A DNA stretch of 64,000 nt from Paraneptunicella aestuarii (GTDB taxonomy: Bacteria > Pseudomonadota > Gammaproteobacteria > Enterobacterales > Alteromonadaceae). Below the pieces are notes generated by a model that ran no database searches, was not told the origin of the DNA, and worked only from the letters and a program-made list of their open reading frames with translations. The position numbers were made by a program, and so were the translations under genes. This document shows, one piece after another, positions 3,935-57,589 of this stretch. The DNA lies in contig NZ_CP074570.1 in the NCBI RefSeq assembly GCF_019900845.1, positions 992,001 through 1,056,000 on the forward strand, given 5' to 3'. Within the stretch, counting starts at the first letter, position 1, and every line of letters starts with the position of its first letter.

Positions 3935-5263
3935 TTACCGCTTAATAGCCGATAAAATACTGAATTTTTCATTACTTGCAATCACCTGATAGCCACCAAA
4001 CAAACGCTTTAACTTGTCATGATGTTGCAAATGACGGTTTGCCACCACTCGCAATTCCCCCCCTTTATGCAAAGCCTGTTTGGCATCCTGGAACATTTGC
4101 CAGGCAATATGGTCGGTAATGGTGTTTTGCTGATGAAAGGGTGGATTACAAACCACGATATCCGCTTTCTGCTCGGGTAAGTCTTCAAGACAGTTGCTGG
4201 CAACGAATTCGCACTTTTGCAATTGTTGTGGCAAATTTTCCTCAACATTGAGTTTGGCAGATGCAATTGCCATGTAGGATTCATCAACGAATATCATCTT
4301 TTTCACGTCGTTGTCATGCAGCATGGTGAGACCAAGAACACCGTTACCACAGCCTAAATCAATGACGGTTTTGTTGCTTGCCTCGGGTAAATGTTCCAGT
4401 AGTAGGCGTGCGCCAATATCTAATTGACCTCGAGAAAACACGTTGGCGTGATTGGCAATGGTGAATTCTGGCGATTCGGTTTTCCAAATGGTTGGGTAGG
4501 GTGAGGGCTTTGCTGTGTTTAACTCTCCCACTTTGGAAAATATTAAGCGTGCCTTTTTCACTGCCAATGAGGTGGTGGTCTCAACCAGATATTTCTCAAA
4601 TAACTCCAGCACTGAAGTTTGCACCGCTTTTACTTTGCCTCCTGCAATCACCGGAGTTTGTGCTGGCAGCTTTTGCAGCATGGCTAACTGATGTTCCAAT
4701 AAGGCATGACTTCTTGGTAGTTTGATCAAAACTAAATGCGGGGTAGGAAAATCAGCGCTTGTTTCATTCATATCTGCCAGTGAATTCATCATGTACACAC
4801 TGGCATCAGAGATTTCATTGAGCTCCAGGTTTTGCCGTAATGCCTTCTCGGCAATGATGGAATCGGATTGCCAAAGAATGCTGACTTGTGATTGTTTCAA
4901 TGTCGATAAAGCACAGGCAATTGCGCCAAATTCATCATTTAGAATGAGAATGGTTGCGGTCTCAGGTAGTTCCATCTCATTAACATGTTGAATCAAATAC
5001 TCGTCGGCAGCGTCCCAGGCTTGCAGGCTGACATGTTGTCGTTCTTTCGGGTAGCGAAAGAGTTGCAATTTTACGGATGCTTGATTGTCACTCTCTTTAT
5101 TTTCCTGATTTCCATGAGTAGGAAATGCTATGACAAGTTCGCTATTTGGAACTTGTTGAGCTGAGTCTGATTTGATCTCGGAATGCTTTCTTTTTACTCC
5201 GGAATAACCCCGTTTTCTTCCTGAGTTACTTGAATTGTTAGAGCGGCGAGTTTTACTTGTCAT
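3935..5263 (-). CDS. rlmG: RlmG, 23S rRNA (guanine1835-N2)-methyltransferase
   Basis: Methylates G1835 of 23S rRNA. Two tandem Rossmann-like halves: a degenerate N-terminal half (about residues 70-260) containing LQAWDAADEYL as in E. coli RlmG, and a catalytic C-terminal half with the SAM-binding motif VIDLGCGNGVLGL and the NPPF catalytic motif at 373-376 followed by HQQNTITDHIAWQMF. The tail VVANRHLQHHDKLKRLFG distinguishes RlmG from RsmC. It is 442 residues against about 378 in E. coli; the excess is a basic, Ser/Lys/Arg-rich N-terminal extension of about 60 residues. No internal Met offers a shorter start before the core. The Shine-Dalgarno sequence is weak. Confidence 0.88.
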   Translation of the reverse strand: MTSKTRRSNNSSNSGRKRGYSGVKRKHSEIKSDSAQQVPNSELVIAFPTHGNQENKESDNQASVKLQLFRYPKERQHVSLQAWDAADEYLIQHVNEMELPETATILILNDEFGAIACALSTLKQSQVSILWQSDSIIAEKALRQNLELNEISDASVYMMNSLADMNETSADFPTPHLVLIKLPRSHALLEHQLAMLQKLPAQTPVIAGGKVKAVQTSVLELFEKYLVETTTSLAVKKARLIFSKVGELNTAKPSPYPTIWKTESPEFTIANHANVFSRGQLDIGARLLLEHLPEASNKTVIDLGCGNGVLGLTMLHDNDVKKMIFVDESYMAIASAKLNVEENLPQQLQKCEFVASNCLEDLPEQKADIVVCNPPFHQQNTITDHIAWQMFQDAKQALHKGGELRVVANRHLQHHDKLKRLFGGYQVIASNEKFSILSAIKR

Positions 5264-5339: not shown

Positions 5340-5996
5340 ATGAAGCAGCAAAGCTTGTTCGATAGTGAGTTGCAAAATCAAGATGATAATGAGCTTGAAT
5401 TGATCCGCTTTCCACAATTGCCTGACGCAGAATTGGCGTATTACCCTCAATTTCTGGCAGTAGAGCGTGCTGATCATTATTTGACTGTGCTTCGTGAGTC
5501 GTTGGCGTGGAAACAGGAACAGATTCAGTTGTACGGAAAGTCTCATCTTATTCCTCGGCTTCAGGCCTGGTACGGCGATCCAGAAGCTAAATACCAATAT
5601 TCAGGGTTACCTATGCAGCCGGTTCCCTGGACAAAAGAACTGCTGGAACTGAAACTCCAATGTGAGTACCAACTAACTTGTTCTTTCAATAGTGTATTGG
5701 CTAACTGGTATCGAGATGGAAACGATAGCATGGGGTTCCATGCGGACAATGAGCCTGAATTAGGGGCTCAACCTGTCATTGCTGCCGTGAGTTTGGGGCA
5801 GGAAAGGGTAATTCGCTTTCGCCATAAAAATAAAAAAGATACACTCGCGCTGCATTTGCAGCATGGAAGTTTATTGGTCATGGCTGGCAATACCCAGTCT
5901 TACTGGCAACATGGGATTAGTAAGTCCAAACGTACCTTAAATGATCGCATTAGTTTGACCTTTCGCAGGGTCTTTCCAAGCTTAATAACAGGCTAA
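5340..5996 (+). CDS. AlkB-family Fe(II)/2-oxoglutarate dioxygenase (DNA/RNA repair type)
   Basis: Oxidative demethylase of alkylated nucleic-acid bases, closest in layout to the ALKBH2/3-like bacterial group. From the chosen start (MKQQSLFD) it has 218 residues. The iron ligands are visible as H134 and D136 (GFHADNE) and H191 (WQHG), with the 2-oxoglutarate-binding arginines at R203 and R209 (NDRISLTFR). A reading frame extends upstream to 5289, but the sequence from 5340 fits the family and the upstream residues look non-coding. It is divergent from rlmG with 76 bases between the starts. No Ada-like regulator is nearby. Confidence 0.88.
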   Translation: MKQQSLFDSELQNQDDNELELIRFPQLPDAELAYYPQFLAVERADHYLTVLRESLAWKQEQIQLYGKSHLIPRLQAWYGDPEAKYQYSGLPMQPVPWTKELLELKLQCEYQLTCSFNSVLANWYRDGNDSMGFHADNEPELGAQPVIAAVSLGQERVIRFRHKNKKDTLALHLQHGSLLVMAGNTQSYWQHGISKSKRTLNDRISLTFRRVFPSLITG

Positions 5997-50659: not shown

Positions 50660-51063
50660 AGCGAACGTTTACAATGGGAAAATCAGCAGGAGGAGTGACA
50701 TTTGAACTTCTGAAATGGATCCCGTTTCTCATAAAAAATATAATAAAAACAATTAGAAAGCAACATTTGATCCATTAGGTCGAGTACATAGGTTACTAAT
50801 GCTTTGTACTCGACTTATTTGGAAAATAATGAACTAAATTATCGTCTGTACTTGTACCTAATAGATACAAAAAAGTTATCTGTTAAATGCTCTGTTTTTT
50901 AATATGTTTGTCTCTGACTTCGTTAGACGAATCTATATTTTTGCGATTTGCCAGTGGGGTTGTCTCGATTGGTCATTTCAGTTAAACCGCTGTCCTTCTT
51001 ATGTGCGCCTTTCACGCTGGCGCTGCACACAAATCTGGCTTTGGCATTGTTCCCCTGTTGCCA
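50660..51063. other. Left end of the island, no gene seen
   Basis: 404 bases. Holds attL and, at 50779-50787 and 50806-50814, an inverted pair GTCGAGTAC / GTACTCGAC; the same nonamer GTACTCGAC recurs at 57481-57489 near the other end (see findings). The remainder is AT-rich, with only short chance frames. Confidence 0.6.
50691..50711. mobile_element. Putative left attachment repeat (attL) of the island
   Basis: AGGAGTGACATTTG (50691-50704), 32 bases past the relA stop, is repeated exactly at 57569-57582. Extending seven bases more gives 19 of 21 identities. The two copies bracket all the accessory genes, including the integrase. Confidence 0.75.
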
Positions 51064-51459
51064 CTAAACCTTTTTCCTGTTTTTCTTACGGGGCGTTCTT
51101 GCTGGTGGGTTTTTATAAGGTCTTTCAACCCCGACAACATCGGCGCGTCTGTTTACGTGCTCTTTGTATTCGTTAATGACAGGCTCCGCGTTTTTGCCTA
51201 CCTCGGCCTTACGTTTATGGTTTCTAAGGTGCAAGAAAGCCCAATGTAGCGTAAAACAAAGCGAGATAACCATTATCCATAGCTCATATATAACGTTCGA
51301 TATGAGCATTAACACTAAGACCATAACCAGATAAACATTGAGTAATCTAGATTCCTTTCTGACTTCTCGCATCTTTTCAATGTGGGGGTAAAACTTCTGT
51401 TTGTCCTGCCATAAGCGAAGCTGGTTTATTTCAAATTGACTCAGAGGTTTCTTGGACAT
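51064..51459 (-). CDS. Small membrane protein with basic C-terminus, island gene
   Basis: 131 residues. An N-terminal soluble stretch (about 1-40) precedes two hydrophobic segments (about 41-62 and 65-82), then a cytosolic tail that ends in a strongly basic cluster (RTPRKKNRKKV). No family recognised. No good Shine-Dalgarno at ATG 51459. It reads away from the other cargo toward the left end. The basic end could contact nucleic acid or membrane phospholipid. Confidence 0.55.
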   Translation of the reverse strand: MSKKPLSQFEINQLRLWQDKQKFYPHIEKMREVRKESRLLNVYLVMVLVLMLISNVIYELWIMVISLCFTLHWAFLHLRNHKRKAEVGKNAEPVINEYKEHVNRRADVVGVERPYKNPPARTPRKKNRKKV

Positions 51460-52077
51460 AATACAAAGCCGGGTCTGTGTGAATTAACAATGGTTCAACC
51501 AAAAGCGAAAGGCTAAGGCAAGTTAAGTAGTTGAGTAAGGAAACGCGCAGGATTTTAACCGAATAACGACGAGAATGAAATTTTGTGTCTGTGTTCAAGC
51601 TAAAAAAGCCCTGGGACATTTCCCAAGGCTGGCTTACTGTTTCGGCTGGTGGCATTTTGTGAGCTCTAGGGCAAATCTAGAGGGCGTTACTGTCTTCTAT
51701 ATACATTCCGATGAACCCAAGGTTATATAGATTAATATTATTACCTTGTGCTGATTTCTTATGGCTTTAATACTGGTCGCAAGATGCAACCATAAAGACT
51801 TGGCTTTGAGCTTTTCATTTGAATGGCAGGCAGCTAGAAAACCCGCTAAAACCCCTTGCAAATAAAGACTTCTAGGATGTTTCAGCATGTTAATGAATCA
51901 CCCAAAAGACCCACCAGTTAGATCAATAGACCGCATAAATATTAATCCTTAACCTAAAGCTTTCATGCAAACAAAATGACAGATATTAAATTTAACCATA
52001 AGTTGCAGGCGTGTTTCGTTCGGAGTAGTATAATTACCGTTTTAAAAAGCTTTATTTATTATCTAAAGGCTAAGTTT
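51460..52077. other. Island region without a convincing gene
   Basis: 618 bases. Contains the minus-strand terminator at 51602-51630, two weak minus-strand frames (51431-51655, 51697-51888), and, ahead of the next gene, a TATAAT element at 52029-52034 that could be its -10 box. A -35 at the usual distance is not clear. Confidence 0.5.
51602..51630 (-). terminator. Minus-strand rho-independent terminator
   Basis: Read on the minus strand, AGCCTTGGGA pairs with TCCCAGGGCT (10 bp, one G-U) and is followed by TTTTTT, at plus-strand positions 51602-51607. It would end a minus-strand transcript coming from 51.7-51.96 kb, where only a 63-codon frame (51697-51888) of doubtful value exists, or protect the gene at 51064 from upstream reading. 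Confidence 0.6.
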
Positions 52078-52359
52078 ATGAAAAAGATCAAGTTATGTTG
52101 TGTTGTTGTACTTGGATTGCTTGCTGTAACGCCTGTTCATGCTTCGGATAATTGGCTATCAAGTCTCTTTCCTTGGTTGAATGTTTCCGGCGTAGGTTTT
52201 GGCGGTGGTCATCCAGAAGTTAAGGATAAAGAAAGTATTTACACAGCAAATGGTGTTGGATTTGGGGGCGGAGATCCTGTTAGTGCAAGCGGTACTGTAT
52301 ACGTTCCAAACGGCGCTGGTAATAGTGGTGGTAATCCATCAATCCCAGACCCGAATTAA
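52078..52359 (+). CDS. Secreted glycine-rich repeat protein (island cargo, novel)
   Basis: 93 residues from ATG 52078, preceded by AAAGG at 52065-52069. A clear Sec signal peptide spans residues 1-22 (basic MKKIK, hydrophobic core, cleavage after VHA). The mature part of about 71 residues contains an amphipathic Trp/Leu/Phe stretch (DNWLSSLFPWLNV) and three approximate repeats of about 20 residues, each opening with G-V/A-G-F/N-G/S-G-G-H/D/N-P (at about residues 38-46, 59-67, 79-87). No cysteine in the mature part. No family recognised. It is 20 bases before a membrane-protein gene on the same strand. A secreted peptide effector, adhesin-like repeat or signal is possible; not determinable. 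Confidence 0.75.
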   Translation: MKKIKLCCVVVLGLLAVTPVHASDNWLSSLFPWLNVSGVGFGGGHPEVKDKESIYTANGVGFGGGDPVSASGTVYVPNGAGNSGGNPSIPDPN

Positions 52360-52379
52360 TTAAGAGGAACTTGCTAAAT

Positions 52380-53135
52380 ATGAGTACCAACCTTGCTTTC
52401 GTCTTGTCCTTGATATGGGTAATACTCTTGCTGGGCGCGACAGTATTGAATTACTTAAAAGGAAGAAGCCCGTTATTTTACAGTAGTGTGTTTTTACTTG
52501 CGATCTACGCTACTACACATTTAATCAATATTAACTGGTTAGCAACATTACCAGCTATTGAAGCAGTAAAAGTACATTATTTGTTTTATAGCGCTGTACA
52601 GGCTGTTATCGGCATTGGTTTATTTTGGTTAAACCGTAAAAACATGACATTGACGATGGGTCTAGCGATATTTCTGTTAGGTTTAGAAACCATTCTTAAC
52701 TTTGCTGTTCATGTAGACAGAAATGTAATGGCATTGAACTTTAATGCTGTTCCTAATTTGGCAAGTAGCAGTCAATGGTTTTTGTGGCACATAAAAGATG
52801 TTATAGCAACGTTGAACAACCCTGTACTTATCGTTGCTGTAGTCTTGCATAAGGTCTATAAATTTGAACCAGCAGACACGAATGAAGCGATTGATATTGG
52901 CGAAGATGTAGAACGCTTTGTTAAGGGTTGGAAGGACTCAACGCTGAAAGTAGAGCTTTTGAATATGCTGAATAAAGGCATTGCCGAATTGTTAGAACAT
53001 AATTTGAAAAGAGAAAAAACAAGGAACCTGATAGGTTTAACGCTTATAGAAAAGGCAATCGCTATTAGCTACTACGAGCCGGACAGAAGCAATTGCGGAA
53101 GGTTTGCCCGTTTCATGTATTGGTTAAGAAGCTAA
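52380..53135 (+). CDS. Five-segment membrane protein with cytosolic helical tail (partner of the secreted repeat protein)
   Basis: 251 residues from ATG 52380, with AGAGGA at 52363-52368. Five hydrophobic segments by eye (about 6-27, 32-54, 65-85, 90-112, 142-162), followed by about 85 charged, helical residues (DIGEDVERFVKGWKDS...) likely in the cytosol. No catalytic motif seen and family not recognised. Tight spacing to the upstream secreted gene suggests co-transcription and a joint role, for example export, sensing or immunity. The stop overlaps the convergent gene by 4 bases. Confidence 0.75.
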   Translation: MSTNLAFVLSLIWVILLLGATVLNYLKGRSPLFYSSVFLLAIYATTHLININWLATLPAIEAVKVHYLFYSAVQAVIGIGLFWLNRKNMTLTMGLAIFLLGLETILNFAVHVDRNVMALNFNAVPNLASSSQWFLWHIKDVIATLNNPVLIVAVVLHKVYKFEPADTNEAIDIGEDVERFVKGWKDSTLKVELLNMLNKGIAELLEHNLKREKTRNLIGLTLIEKAIAISYYEPDRSNCGRFARFMYWLRS

Positions 53136-53407
53136 TTTCTGAATAACTCATCGTTATCTACATTCACATCGAAAAGTCGGCGTAGGGAAACCTCGCCGAT
53201 TTTTGTTTTCTGAGACAGTAGATCCATAAATTCAACATTGACTATTCCTCTTTTAAGGAACATTTCAAATCTTCTTATTTCCCCTTCGTGGGTCTCATTG
53301 CCATATAGGTGACGGTAAAAGTCAGCAACCCCGTTATAGTCTGTCTGGATCAGGTATCTCATACGTCGTTTTATTTTCTCAGAACTATCGAGTGTAAACT
53401 CAACCAT
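53132..53407 (-). CDS. Small charged protein, possible DNA-binding regulator (island)
   Basis: 91 residues from ATG 53407 (MVEFTLDSSEKIKRRMRYLI), with an AGAGAG Shine-Dalgarno. A frame continues to 53482 but lies upstream of the natural start. Charged and helical; the last half (FEMFLKRGIVNVEFMDLLSQ then KIGEVSLRRLFDV) suggests a helix-turn-helix, as in small phage-type regulators, but I do not recognise a family. Convergent with the membrane protein gene and divergent from the frame at 53440. Confidence 0.6.
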   Translation of the reverse strand: MVEFTLDSSEKIKRRMRYLIQTDYNGVADFYRHLYGNETHEGEIRRFEMFLKRGIVNVEFMDLLSQKTKIGEVSLRRLFDVNVDNDELFRN

Positions 53408-54670: not shown

Positions 54671-55537
54671 TTAAAAGTCTGCGTCTTCGTCATCCTCGTA
54701 ATACTTGGGTTCTTCAATGCGATGAACGGTTATGTTCAGGTCTCTATTGTTTTTGTGAGCGACTTTCTTCAAGGCTTTCAGGAAAACGATATAGTCTTCA
54801 TCTACGATAGCCTCTAGGGTTTTGGTCAATGCCGCAACTCTAGCCGTCTGAGTCGGTTCTCGGGTATTTGCTTTACGTTCCAGAATAAAACGATAGGTAG
54901 GGAACCTATGATCGTCTAACTTGAATAAACGAGCACCATCACTGCTATAGCAATTACGAGGAAGTCGATTTATCCAAGCGCCTATCTTTTCGTCTATCTC
55001 GTCGGGGTTATCGCTGGGGTTAATCTCGGCTTCTTTCTTTAGCTGTCTGGCGGCTTGGGTTATCTTCTGAGCTAATCTTTCCTTGATACCTTCCCTTTGT
55101 AACGCTTTCGCTTTTATGTCCTCGTGGCTGTATACACAACTCCTCAAGGCGGCTTGGGATCGCTCGGTGTCGTTGAGTCCTTCCCCGTGGGTTGTGTTGA
55201 CGTAATACCCTTTTGCTAAGGCTTCATGATAACTAAAGGGCATTATCTCTATGGCGACTTGAGGATCATCATTAGGGAAAGCTTCTTGGTAAGCCTTTAG
55301 GCGGTGATGTCCATCAAAGACGAGGTATTCACCACCATGACGAATAACCTTGATAGGCTCAATCTTTTGTCCTGCCTCTAGGCTGGTGGCTATACGATCA
55401 ACCATAGCTTCAAGTCTTAACCCTTTGACCTCTTTTTGTCCTCGTTGAAGCATGGCATCTGTACGAACTTGAAGACGAAAGTCCGTGGTGATCTCAGAAA
55501 GTGGAAGGTGAGTCTTAATACTCTGAGGTTTTTTCAT
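54671..55537 (-). CDS. ParB/Spo0J-type N-terminal-domain protein (island)
   Basis: 288 residues. The ParB-like nuclease/CTPase core is visible at about 42-115: LEAGQKIEPIKVIRHGGEYLV then D75-GHHRLKAY (the DGHHR box), as in ParB and sulfiredoxin-like proteins. The rest is helical and charged, ending in an acidic tail (YYEDDEDADF). There is no adjacent ParA-like ATPase. AAGGAT precedes ATG 55537. The nearby 12-bp array is a candidate binding site. It might serve partition, regulation, or nucleotide-linked DNA modification; not resolvable. Confidence 0.75.
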   Translation of the reverse strand: MKKPQSIKTHLPLSEITTDFRLQVRTDAMLQRGQKEVKGLRLEAMVDRIATSLEAGQKIEPIKVIRHGGEYLVFDGHHRLKAYQEAFPNDDPQVAIEIMPFSYHEALAKGYYVNTTHGEGLNDTERSQAALRSCVYSHEDIKAKALQREGIKERLAQKITQAARQLKKEAEINPSDNPDEIDEKIGAWINRLPRNCYSSDGARLFKLDDHRFPTYRFILERKANTREPTQTARVAALTKTLEAIVDEDYIVFLKALKKVAHKNNRDLNITVHRIEEPKYYEDDEDADF

Positions 55538-55726: not shown

Positions 55727-57409
55727 CTAAAACGCCTCAAATTCTATCATATCCAAATACCGTTTCTTTTCTGCCACGGGCAAGCCTGAGCCGTAGTCGT
55801 CAGCTACCGAGACCTTATCCACTGTCCAGCCTCCGAGTATTTCGGCGATCTCTTTGGGTATCTCCTGTGCCTTTGCCCTAAATGCGTCTCTGAATGTGTG
55901 CCGGAAGCTGTGGAAGGTGTAGGGCTGTTGTCCGTTACCATCTGGTTTACGAATGCCTAACGGAACAAGAGTTCTATTGAATTCCTGTGAAATTTTACTC
56001 GACAGGTAGCCGCCCGAGCTTTCGGAACTGAGATTAAATATCAAACCTTTATTGGGGCGTGTCGCTAGCCATTCCTCAAAGCCCAAATCGAGTATTTTTT
56101 GTGGAATGGGTAGGGTACGCCTAGAGGCTTTCGTTTTGGCTCTTTGGCCTTCAAGCGAGGCGATTTTAACGCACAAAATATTGTCTACTTCCTGAAAGTT
56201 GGCTTTCTCTAACTGGCAAATTTCATTCAGCCTTAAACCCATGCCTAAAGCCAATCTTGTACCCCACTTAAAGAAATCATCTTCCTGTCTGTTTCTTAAT
56301 ATCTTTTGTAGTTGCTCAGAGGTAAACGCTAGGCGCTTTTCAGCTCTTTTTACTTCGTCAGAAATTAGCAATTTAGGATCGTAAGGGTTAGACATGATCC
56401 AATCATTACGCACAGCAAAATCAAGCAGTTCTTTAACTTTTTGCATGTAAGCATTCACGGTCTTTGGGGATAGGCTGGGCAAATGATCGAACTTACCTGA
56501 CGGTATGAGTTTAAACACTTCCTCTAGCGGTAAATTGCGGGTTTCTCTTTTCAAATTGACATTAGAAGGAAATCGGATCAACAAGTCTCTAAAGATGCGC
56601 AGTTCCTTGTAACGAATGTCTTTTAGTTTGGTCTCTGCACCTAGCATCGCCACCAGCGCCCTTGCTGCTACCATTGGTTTGTCCATATATTTAGGGTTAC
56701 GGTATTTGGTTTTGTCGTTACGAATATCTTCGAGGTATTCCTCGGCGGCTTGCCCAAGCTCCGGGACTCTTGCATGGCTTATGTCTATTTTGTTGGCGCG
56801 TTTCTGTTCCCATGGCTTTGAATACTCATTGAGAAAACGTGTATAGACTTCAACCATGTTTCTTAACCAGTAAAAGACTAACCGTTGCTCTTTGTCTTTG
56901 GGTAGGTTCTTCGGGACTAGGTGACGTTCCTTAAGTTCGTCTAACTGCCAAGTAAGGTGCTTCAATTCGTTTGGATTGCCGTCAAGAGCATCTGAATATT
57001 GCTCTTTGGCTATGGATAGGTCATCAATCAGGTTTTCCCTTTCGCTTAATACCTTGCCGGAAATGTCTTTTTCTATTTGGTCAAACTGGTAGTTAGCTTC
57101 GTTCATAGCGATAACCTGTAAGTCGGAATCGCTGATTGCTTGAAGGCGTTCACGTTGGCGGCGTATGGCTTGAAACTTGGCGTCTAGCTCAACGCTGTGT
57201 AAACGGGCTTTAGCCTTGGCGGTTTCTCTGTCTTTGGTTCTAAGAGAAAATCCCAATTTCGTTTTACCGAAATCAGCTTGAAGATCGAGAGGGATCCGGC
57301 GCTGATAATAATAGACGCCAGTTTCTTGTCTTACTGTGTGCATTGGATTGCCCTCCCTATCCCTGTTTTCCTTTTCAGGTGAATCATGAGAAGACGATTT
57401 ATCAGACAT
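55727..57409 (-). CDS. int: Tyrosine recombinase (integrase) of the island
   Basis: 560-residue site-specific recombinase. N-terminal part (about 22-80) with TGVYYYQRRIPLDLQADFG, a domain shared by many phage-type integrases of this length, then a helical central region (about 90-310) and the catalytic domain: R393 (GLRLNE), K427 region (KTKASRR), H500-xx-R503 (FHSFRHTF), W528 in the place of the usual second His (LGGWTVD) and nucleophile Y539 (VADDYGSG). A complete active site. Its end of the island lies next to attR. Start at 57409; another Met at 57343 is possible. Confidence 0.9.
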   Translation of the reverse strand: MSDKSSSHDSPEKENRDREGNPMHTVRQETGVYYYQRRIPLDLQADFGKTKLGFSLRTKDRETAKAKARLHSVELDAKFQAIRRQRERLQAISDSDLQVIAMNEANYQFDQIEKDISGKVLSERENLIDDLSIAKEQYSDALDGNPNELKHLTWQLDELKERHLVPKNLPKDKEQRLVFYWLRNMVEVYTRFLNEYSKPWEQKRANKIDISHARVPELGQAAEEYLEDIRNDKTKYRNPKYMDKPMVAARALVAMLGAETKLKDIRYKELRIFRDLLIRFPSNVNLKRETRNLPLEEVFKLIPSGKFDHLPSLSPKTVNAYMQKVKELLDFAVRNDWIMSNPYDPKLLISDEVKRAEKRLAFTSEQLQKILRNRQEDDFFKWGTRLALGMGLRLNEICQLEKANFQEVDNILCVKIASLEGQRAKTKASRRTLPIPQKILDLGFEEWLATRPNKGLIFNLSSESSGGYLSSKISQEFNRTLVPLGIRKPDGNGQQPYTFHSFRHTFRDAFRAKAQEIPKEIAEILGGWTVDKVSVADDYGSGLPVAEKKRYLDMIEFEAF

Positions 57410-57579
57410 TTTAATACTACTTTACAACTAATTATCTTGGGAAATAGTAGCACGACAAAGACACCCAGAGTTAACTTAATGTACTCGACCCATGTACTAG
57501 AGTTGTCCTTTTGCAGCCCTTTATAAACGCTAAACCCAGCGATTATGGTAGGTTCAGCGATATTATAAAGGAGTGACAT
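57331..57579 (-). CDS. Possible small membrane protein overlapping attR and the integrase start
   Basis: 82 codons (MSLLYNIAEPTIIAGFSVYK...) on the minus strand, with GGAG about 7 bases before the ATG at 57579. The first four codons lie in the attR repeat, and the last third overlaps the start of int. It has one hydrophobic segment (about 28-47) and a basic end. It may be a chance frame; supported only by the ribosome-binding site and hydrophobic segment. Confidence 0.3.
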   Translation of the reverse strand: MSLLYNIAEPTIIAGFSVYKGLQKDNSSTWVEYIKLTLGVFVVLLFPKIISCKVVLKCLINRLLMIHLKRKTGIGRAIQCTQ

Positions 57580-57589
57580 TTGTGCTTCT
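57569..57589. mobile_element. Putative right attachment repeat (attR) of the island
   Basis: AGGAGTGACATTTG (57569-57582) is identical to the repeat at 50691; the full 21-base repeat differs at two positions. It lies 48 bases before mazG. Confidence 0.75.

Follow-up and report, generated by a model that had tools for sequence, protein, structure and literature searches.

The window analysed here is a stretch of 64,000 nucleotides of the Paraneptunicella aestuarii genome (contig NZ_CP074570.1, positions 992,001 to 1,056,000), in which a small gene for a Gly-rich repeat protein (A) is followed by genes for a membrane protein (B) and a small HTH-like protein (C). The three genes are carried in a ~6.9-kb element with a DUF6538 integrase. 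The features are as follows, in coordinates of the window.

50691..50704 (+): left direct repeat, AGGAGTGACATTTG, att-like end of the element
52023..52039 (+): operator-like motif, GAGTAGTATAATTACCG, over a -10-like box, 55 bp before A (leave-one-out score 14.2)
52078..52359 (+): gene A, 93-aa Gly-rich repeat protein (from the ORF, the reading of its units and the linkage in the family)
52078..52143 (+): putative signal peptide of A, MKKIKLCCVVVLGLLAVTPVHA (by eye)
52189..52215 (+): unit 1 of A, GVGFGGGHP
52252..52278 (+): unit 2 of A, GVGFGGGDP
52312..52338 (+): unit 3 of A, GAGNSGGNP
52380..53135 (+): gene B, 251 aa, five predicted transmembrane (TM) segments (residues 3-155) and a cytosolic helical domain (from the ORF, the family alignment and an AF2 model)
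52854..53132 (+): cytosolic domain of B, which in relatives recombines separately from the TM part
53132..53407 (-): gene C, 91 aa, HTH-like, convergent to B
54671..55537 (-): 288-aa element protein next to the integrase, of no recognised family (Pfam)
55727..57409 (-): DUF6538 tyrosine integrase (Pfam)
57569..57582 (+): right direct repeat, AGGAGTGACATTTG

Protein A carries three GxGxxGGxP units and is apparently Sec-exported, as residues 1-22, ending in VHA, read by eye as a Sec-type signal peptide. The aromatic stretch DNWLSSLFPWL directly follows the signal peptide, the mature part is devoid of Cys and has a net charge of -4, and the C-terminal residues are ..NPSIPDPN. Gene B starts at the ATG at 52380, exactly 20 bases past the stop of A; a longer start, the TTG at 52371, was unsupported by the family alignment. 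The AF2 model of B (mean pLDDT 83.6) contains five long helices (3-26, 30-52, 59-84, 91-116 and 134-155) and further helices at 167-182, 188-207 and 213-230, the cytosolic part of ~95 aa being modelled as helices only. Loops 1 and 3 bear two K/R each and loop 2 bears none, and we infer from the positive-inside rule an N-out/C-in topology. The invariant columns of the B alignment are Y67, D113, L119 and W136, with no Ser among them, and a loop of the form HxDRN...WWLW, which would face the periplasm in the above topology, is conserved as well.

None of the three proteins hit a Pfam family at E<=1, and their NCBIfam matches were all sub-threshold, including those of B to a NuoK model (E 0.019) and of C to a MarR-type model (E 0.041). 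The 34 relatives compared with Pfam gave nothing significant either (best E 0.015), and neither a kinase, a cyclase nor any other known output domain was found in B. C is predicted to form short helices, and TPR is absent from it in Pfam; two relatives of C match DUF6471 (Pfam), on which nothing was found in the open-licence literature. The original prediction had described an exported 93-residue protein with three Gly units, a Cys-free mature part and an aromatic stretch, followed after 20 bases by a five-segment membrane protein with a cytosolic helical domain, neither of a known family. This description of A and B held in full against the ORFs, the AF2 model and the family searches, but gene C, the operator-like motif and the paralogues had been overlooked.

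Gene C overlaps the stop of B by 4 bp. Two layouts occur among the loci: in type I, as in the window, C is convergent with B, and in type II C, A and B lie in this order on one strand. The motif consensus GGTTAnTATnnTnACCG, derived from regions upstream of A, is an inverted repeat over a -10-like TATnnT. In leave-one-out scans, the motif was present at all 15 promoters of the 14 loci with C (scores 13.3-23.7; the A start used for L031 is off by a few bases) and at none of the six loci without C first tested, namely two rpoS-linked and four phage-type loci (scores at most 7.5), against a 99th percentile of 9.6 and a maximum of 14.2 in 170 control upstream regions. The association of motif and C has a locus-level p of 2.6e-5, and it is not independent evidence of binding because the loci without C are also distant in descent. 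The motif of the window (14.2, about the control maximum, though no control reached it), which is the second weakest of the 15 and falls outside the strict pattern, and that of L030 (13.3) are marginal. At L041, which has no A, the motif stands before B. The strict pattern occurs at 26 distinct sites in the P. aestuarii genome (29 strand-wise; one in the control), of which 12 belong to B loci, 13 lie in other places and the last (1324781) falls in the start of an A-like gene, L141.

In P. aestuarii, C stands beside nine of the ten B loci, the rpoS-linked locus being without it, and all 11 C profile matches adjoin a B. Alteromonas sp. a30 has eight C matches, seven beside a B and one orphan, and the C profile had no match in G372, G189 or G147. 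As C is also missing at the phage-type loci L097, L098, L100 and L103, at rpoS-linked loci and, by eye, at the B' and Idiomarina-like loci described below, it is not needed everywhere. Three side observations concern regulators. An XRE-like gene (HTH by eye) is found in both species with the same motif just upstream (L134, G000:C1:3444169; L115, G001:C14:25634), and its product may be a master regulator, or else the protein that really binds the motif. Another small XRE-like gene, of the type GLTTxQMAxxAGVKTRKTYENWEK (by eye), lies near A-B at L029, L031, L037, L040, L041 and L194; the L040 copy matches HTH_19 with E 4.5e-6, below the cut-off. The orphan C of Alteromonas sp. a30 (L142, 3754-4113, minus strand) has an XRE-like neighbour and neither A nor B, and is probably a decayed locus.

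The element around A-B-C has flanking repeats at an otherwise empty site. Only 5.8e-4 matches like the 14-bp direct repeat are expected in the stretches compared, and just 75 bp separate relA from mazG in Alteromonas sp. a30, where the intergenic sequence differs from that of the window. The integrase scores 65.7 bits against DUF6538 (cut-off 27) and 33.3 against Phage_integrase (27.1). A protein of 131 aa with apparently two TM segments and of no known family is also encoded inside the element (51064-51459, minus strand). DUF6538 integrases stand beside three of the 16 B loci found by the searches described below (only three integrases, picked by eye, were checked against Pfam): in the window, ~2 kb from C at L027 (a30) and 0.5 kb before the first A at L029 (P. 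aestuarii). A 13-mer repeat around L027 was taken as chance rather than an element end. L028 (a30) lies, by eye, in a P2-like prophage, and two of the 16 loci adjoin rpoS (by eye). The idea that the genes travel as cargo of integrase-bearing elements is thus partly borne out, namely for the window locus, L027 and L029 on the basis of integrases picked by eye, and the prophages add another kind of mobile carriage.

Whole-genome searches identified ten B loci in P. aestuarii and six in Alteromonas sp. a30, and an A-type gene is directly upstream of B at 15 of the 16, L041 having none. A single-sequence search with B gave no match in 57 further genomes from the family and order, and in class-wide samples B was recovered from its own genome only (1/369 and 1/274). 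With a B profile, five of 395 family genomes gave a match, that in G147 being weak (E 1.1e-6); 6-18 candidates were scored per genome in such profile searches, and the copy numbers they give are lower bounds. The confinement to one genus suggested by the single-sequence search (2/59 genomes) was overturned by the B' branch, which was found via the motif. An order-wide search with profile A1 gave 2/394, one being its own genome, and the second match, 53 residues in a frame of 2764 aa, was taken as spurious. The B protein of L039 had no relative on plasmids; viral contigs searched with the g1 profile and L039 yielded none, and the single match in PHROGs, a weak one, was to a family without assigned function. 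At topic level, the abstract openings seen in the open-licence literature contained no recognised description of an A-B family.

The pairing of A and B extends beyond these loci. A small ORF with Gly units lies directly upstream of 47 of 52 B or B1 genes, compared with nine of 174 control genes (ORFs of 130 aa or more from the same loci), under a strict unit rule that was set after the sequences had been seen; two of the nine control matches are themselves B'-type loci (Fisher 1.5e-33, with paralogues that are not independent). The strict rule replaced a looser regular expression, which had matched 50/52 genes and 36/174 controls. The five misses are L041 and L192, which lack A, and L149, L153 and L194, which have weaker units; the match of L099 is doubtful, and L189 and L196 (G545 and G521 regions) are outside the 52-gene count. 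The unit of A and B proposed at the outset is therefore supported, although in this genus it usually comprises three genes, A, B and C, and a common motif. The genome searches found neither widespread unlinked housekeeping homologues nor an absence of co-occurrence, the two outcomes that had been named as counting against the pair.

Precursors contain one to eight units, and near-identical tandem units are seen at L193 (five of 20 aa), L197 (eight of 9 aa), L187 (eight) and L194 (eight). L193 and L197 apparently occupy one chromosomal place, with rsmI and mraZ near (by eye), so that unit length and number appear to change there while the core GGGVEP stays. A 172-aa tandem-repeat ORF between B and C at L031 (4288-4806, plus strand) is apparently an inserted repeat array. 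The leader of A reads by eye as Sec-type in g1 and some others, FlgM-like, with no signal peptide, in g18/g69 and L194, and double-glycine-like in L153 only. An export signal was not visible by eye in A of the Pseudoalteromonas phage HS6 either, and at HS6 and the g18/g69 B' loci, where A lacks a Sec signal by eye, secretion is only putative.

The B' branch is represented in P. aestuarii by L141, where the A-like gene precedes a 173-aa B1' with five TM-like segments and then a ~90-aa B2' with a single one (TM by eye). B1' occurs in 11 of 196 family genomes (5/52 genera), with three copies in P. aestuarii and seven in Alteromonas sp. a30, and the B1' profile matches 15 of 197 order genomes (6/80 genera), with at least four copies in P. 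aestuarii; this genome has at least 14 B and B' loci in total, one of which (L041) is without A. Tandem B1' sets were found in the small genomes of family f7, which we infer to be Idiomarina, and the Idiomarina-like copies lie between the housekeeping genes pyrF, rsmI and mraZ (by eye). A position weight matrix rescan of 30 further B'-type genes and two phage loci gave motif scores of at least 13.3 at two of the 30, both in the P. aestuarii genome. The motif lies inside the start of A at L143/L141 (score 20.1) and at -111 at L194 (score 14.2), C being adjacent in neither case. At L194 a stand-alone 79-aa protein (5701-5940, plus strand; no Pfam match) resembles the B cytosolic module by eye, with a CI-like repressor adjacent.

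Phage HS6, described as transposing in a Mu-like manner (PMC5498523), carries at its end an A-like gene (58 aa, with GGGGHP), B1 and B2, which are unmentioned in the parts of that paper available to us. An IMG/VR contig (L103) resembles HS6 in A and B1, and two genomes of genus g18 have A and a fused B beside phage tail genes. The P2-like prophage at L028 holds, beside the fused A-B, a B'-type set with an NGGGLKPDP repeat peptide (3989-5130, minus strand). The B1' profile aligns with that of the phage/g18 B proteins (probability 95.8%, E 7.7e-9, 150 columns); as its direct match to the fused-B profile is weak (probability 5%, E 0.008), the link between B' and B runs through the phage/g18 proteins. 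HS6 B2 gave one short BLASTP match to fused B (20 residues, E 0.002). B' of L141 had no match among phages and matched phrog_31674 with E 5.7e-5.

Comparisons among related loci indicate independent recombination of the TM and cytosolic halves of B. Between L027 and L028, both of a30, protein identity is 53% in the TM half, 92% in the cytosolic half and 94% in C; DNA windows show 36-68% over the A region and TM half and 83-99% over the cytosolic half and C, and dS is saturated in the TM half versus 0.28 and 0.12 in the shared half. The exchange goes both ways, P0008 and P0009 sharing 92% in the TM half and 49% in the cytosolic half, and P0028 and P0029 63% and 99%. A of the window looks like a composite too, with units 1 and 2 L028-like and unit 3 L027-like by eye. 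Since dN is well below dS where defined (dN/dS pairs 0.035/0.28, 0.024/0.12, 0.15/1.17, 0.14/1.65, 0.37/2.39 and 0.31/2.32), purifying selection seems to act on the genes. Co-variation of C with a particular half of B was considered as a sign of functional coupling and rejected: C follows the TM half more closely at type II loci (rho 0.89, against 0.64 for the cytosolic half) and the cytosolic half at type I loci (0.52 against 0.34), a reversal which indicates that C follows physical proximity and leaves B-C contact without independent support.

The reading that we tentatively prefer, as it would bring together the computed gene linkage, repeats, motif, mosaicism, and phage and element carriage, is a peptide signal in multiple copies whose membrane receptor is not a kinase, together with a regulator encoded alongside. 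A would be the secreted precursor of a short Gly-rich peptide, present in one to eight copies and released by processing. B would bind the peptide as its membrane receptor, sense it at the periplasmic face and pass the signal on by way of its cytosolic helical domain, or, in the versions of the B' branch and the phage, by way of the separate B2. C would in this genus be an XRE-like DNA-binding protein that reads the state of B, perhaps while held at the membrane, and acts at the operator that covers the -10 box in the promoter of A-B. Many such channels would coexist per genome, multiplied by phages, integrative elements and recombination of sensor and output halves. We rank signal and receptor above toxin and immunity on account of the homogeneous repeat units, the mostly acidic peptides, the conserved periplasm-facing loop, the exchangeable cytosolic module and the regulator that tracks the motif. 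Counting against a signal are that B has no kinase, cyclase or known output domain, that C is missing at the phage-type, rpoS-linked, B' and Idiomarina-like loci and its contact with B lacks independent support, that two B' genes with no adjacent C have the motif, that 13 of the 26 motif sites are not at A-B loci, that A of HS6 and of the g18/g69 B' loci shows no Sec signal by eye, and that structure comparison of B was uninformative.

The strongest rival, which we regard as rather unlikely, is that A is a secreted antibacterial peptide (bacteriocin-like, for kin discrimination), B or B1 plus B2 the cognate immunity, and C the operon regulator. The charge of A speaks against it, as typical class II bacteriocins are cationic: of 19 mature A proteins from the fused-type loci, the g18 loci and L141 (60-100 aa), 18 have a negative net charge, as do 24 of 32 from B'-type and phage genes (51-261 aa) when the initial 22 residues are left off, L141/L143 being counted in both sets and the few neutral or positive ones including HS6 (+2) and L103 (+1). 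Many A proteins do have Trp/Phe/Cys hydrophobic cores, as a toxin might, and the toxin-then-immunity gene order, the close linkage (47/52), the many divergent paralogues per genome and the mobile carriage are all in keeping with such a system. Structure comparison of B gave no informative match; a weak lead is the pediocin immunity protein PedB at Foldseek rank 19 (probability 0.66, TMt 0.51, E 2.2, 87 aligned columns), the alignment being taken to cover the cytosolic bundle. However, near-identical repeats and an independently exchanged cytosolic half are unexpected for an immunity protein, and a dedicated exporter or maturase was not recognised by eye beside the loci read. Class II bacteriocins and microcins resemble A-B as small secreted peptides with an adjacent membrane protein, mobile and paralogous, and differ in that A is mostly acidic, its leader here is Sec-type, and the regulator and promoter motif are common to paralogues. 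The class II combination of a double-glycine leader and a C39 ABC exporter is absent here, with no exporter among seven window ORFs (Pfam).

It is improbable that A-B is an exclusion or defence module of prophages and mobile elements, altering the envelope of the lysogen or sensing phage, although the genes at the end of HS6, beside tail genes in two g18 genomes and in the L028 prophage would suit this role. A PADLOC-model match lies within ~2 kb of six of the ten fused-B loci in P. aestuarii; the neighbours are Mrr and type I RM (L031), a C5 methylase and an EcoO109I-like enzyme (L033, Pfam), a KAP/PifA-like protein (L034), PDC-M43 (L038), SIR2_2 with a ThsA match (L039), and Vsr and PDC-M33A (L040). 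As these neighbours come from ten proteins chosen by eye with no density control, they only show that the loci occupy variable spots. None of nine family proteins (A, B, C and six relatives) matches a family of PADLOC-DB 2.0 at E<=0.01, the Idiomarina-like copies sit between housekeeping genes, and the repeats and many paralogues are left unexplained by exclusion or defence. The surface material also envisaged by the original prediction, with A as a structural component of surface or matrix and B as an assembly or export factor, would agree with Gly-rich repeats of variable number, but is very improbable given that A is short with single units occurring, and that its five-TM partner has a cytosolic domain, swapped halves and often a linked regulator.

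Returning to a peptide signal with its receptor, we compared A-B with known systems. Peptide signals are textbook Gram-positive, and agr, ComQXPA and ComCDE are Gram-positive pherotype systems in which the peptide gene is next to the receptor gene. A-B shares this arrangement, as well as a variable sensor half and a separately conserved output half, but its hosts are Gram-negative, B is without a histidine kinase (it matches no Pfam family), and an AgrB/ComQ-type maturase was not recognised beside B or among seven window ORFs (Pfam), though host proteases may serve instead. Yeast alpha-factor and neuropeptides have multi-copy precursors, like the near-identical tandem units within one putatively secreted precursor here; A-B differs from these in being bacterial, in lacking recognised processing sites and in a partner with five TM segments (model) rather than a 7-TM GPCR. 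Arbitrium and other RRNPP systems are likewise phage-borne with a small peptide and a regulator, but C is of 91 aa with no TPR found (Pfam), and a membrane protein stands in between. In marine Gammaproteobacteria, GlyGly-CTERM/rhombosortase likewise has a Gly-rich signal to which a polytopic membrane protein is paired (PMC3237569); by comparison, A has no C-terminal TM segment or basic tail after the Gly residues and B has no invariant Ser.

We put forward, with considerable doubt, the possibility that A-B amounts to a new class of peptide communication among Gram-negative bacteria, with multi-copy pheromone precursors, a kinase-less five-TM receptor, an exchangeable cytosolic output module and over ten private channels in a genome, which transposable phages and integrative elements would have spread. 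The family would represent either a new mode of signalling or a new class of peptide antagonism in marine Gammaproteobacteria, in genera that are not known as pathogens. It is a fast-evolving, phage-carried pair of a repeat peptide and a membrane protein, with no significant Pfam, NCBIfam or PADLOC family among the members compared, save DUF6471 in the two relatives of C. Even if the mechanism differs from that proposed here, the superfamily and the module swapping are new facts to be explained.
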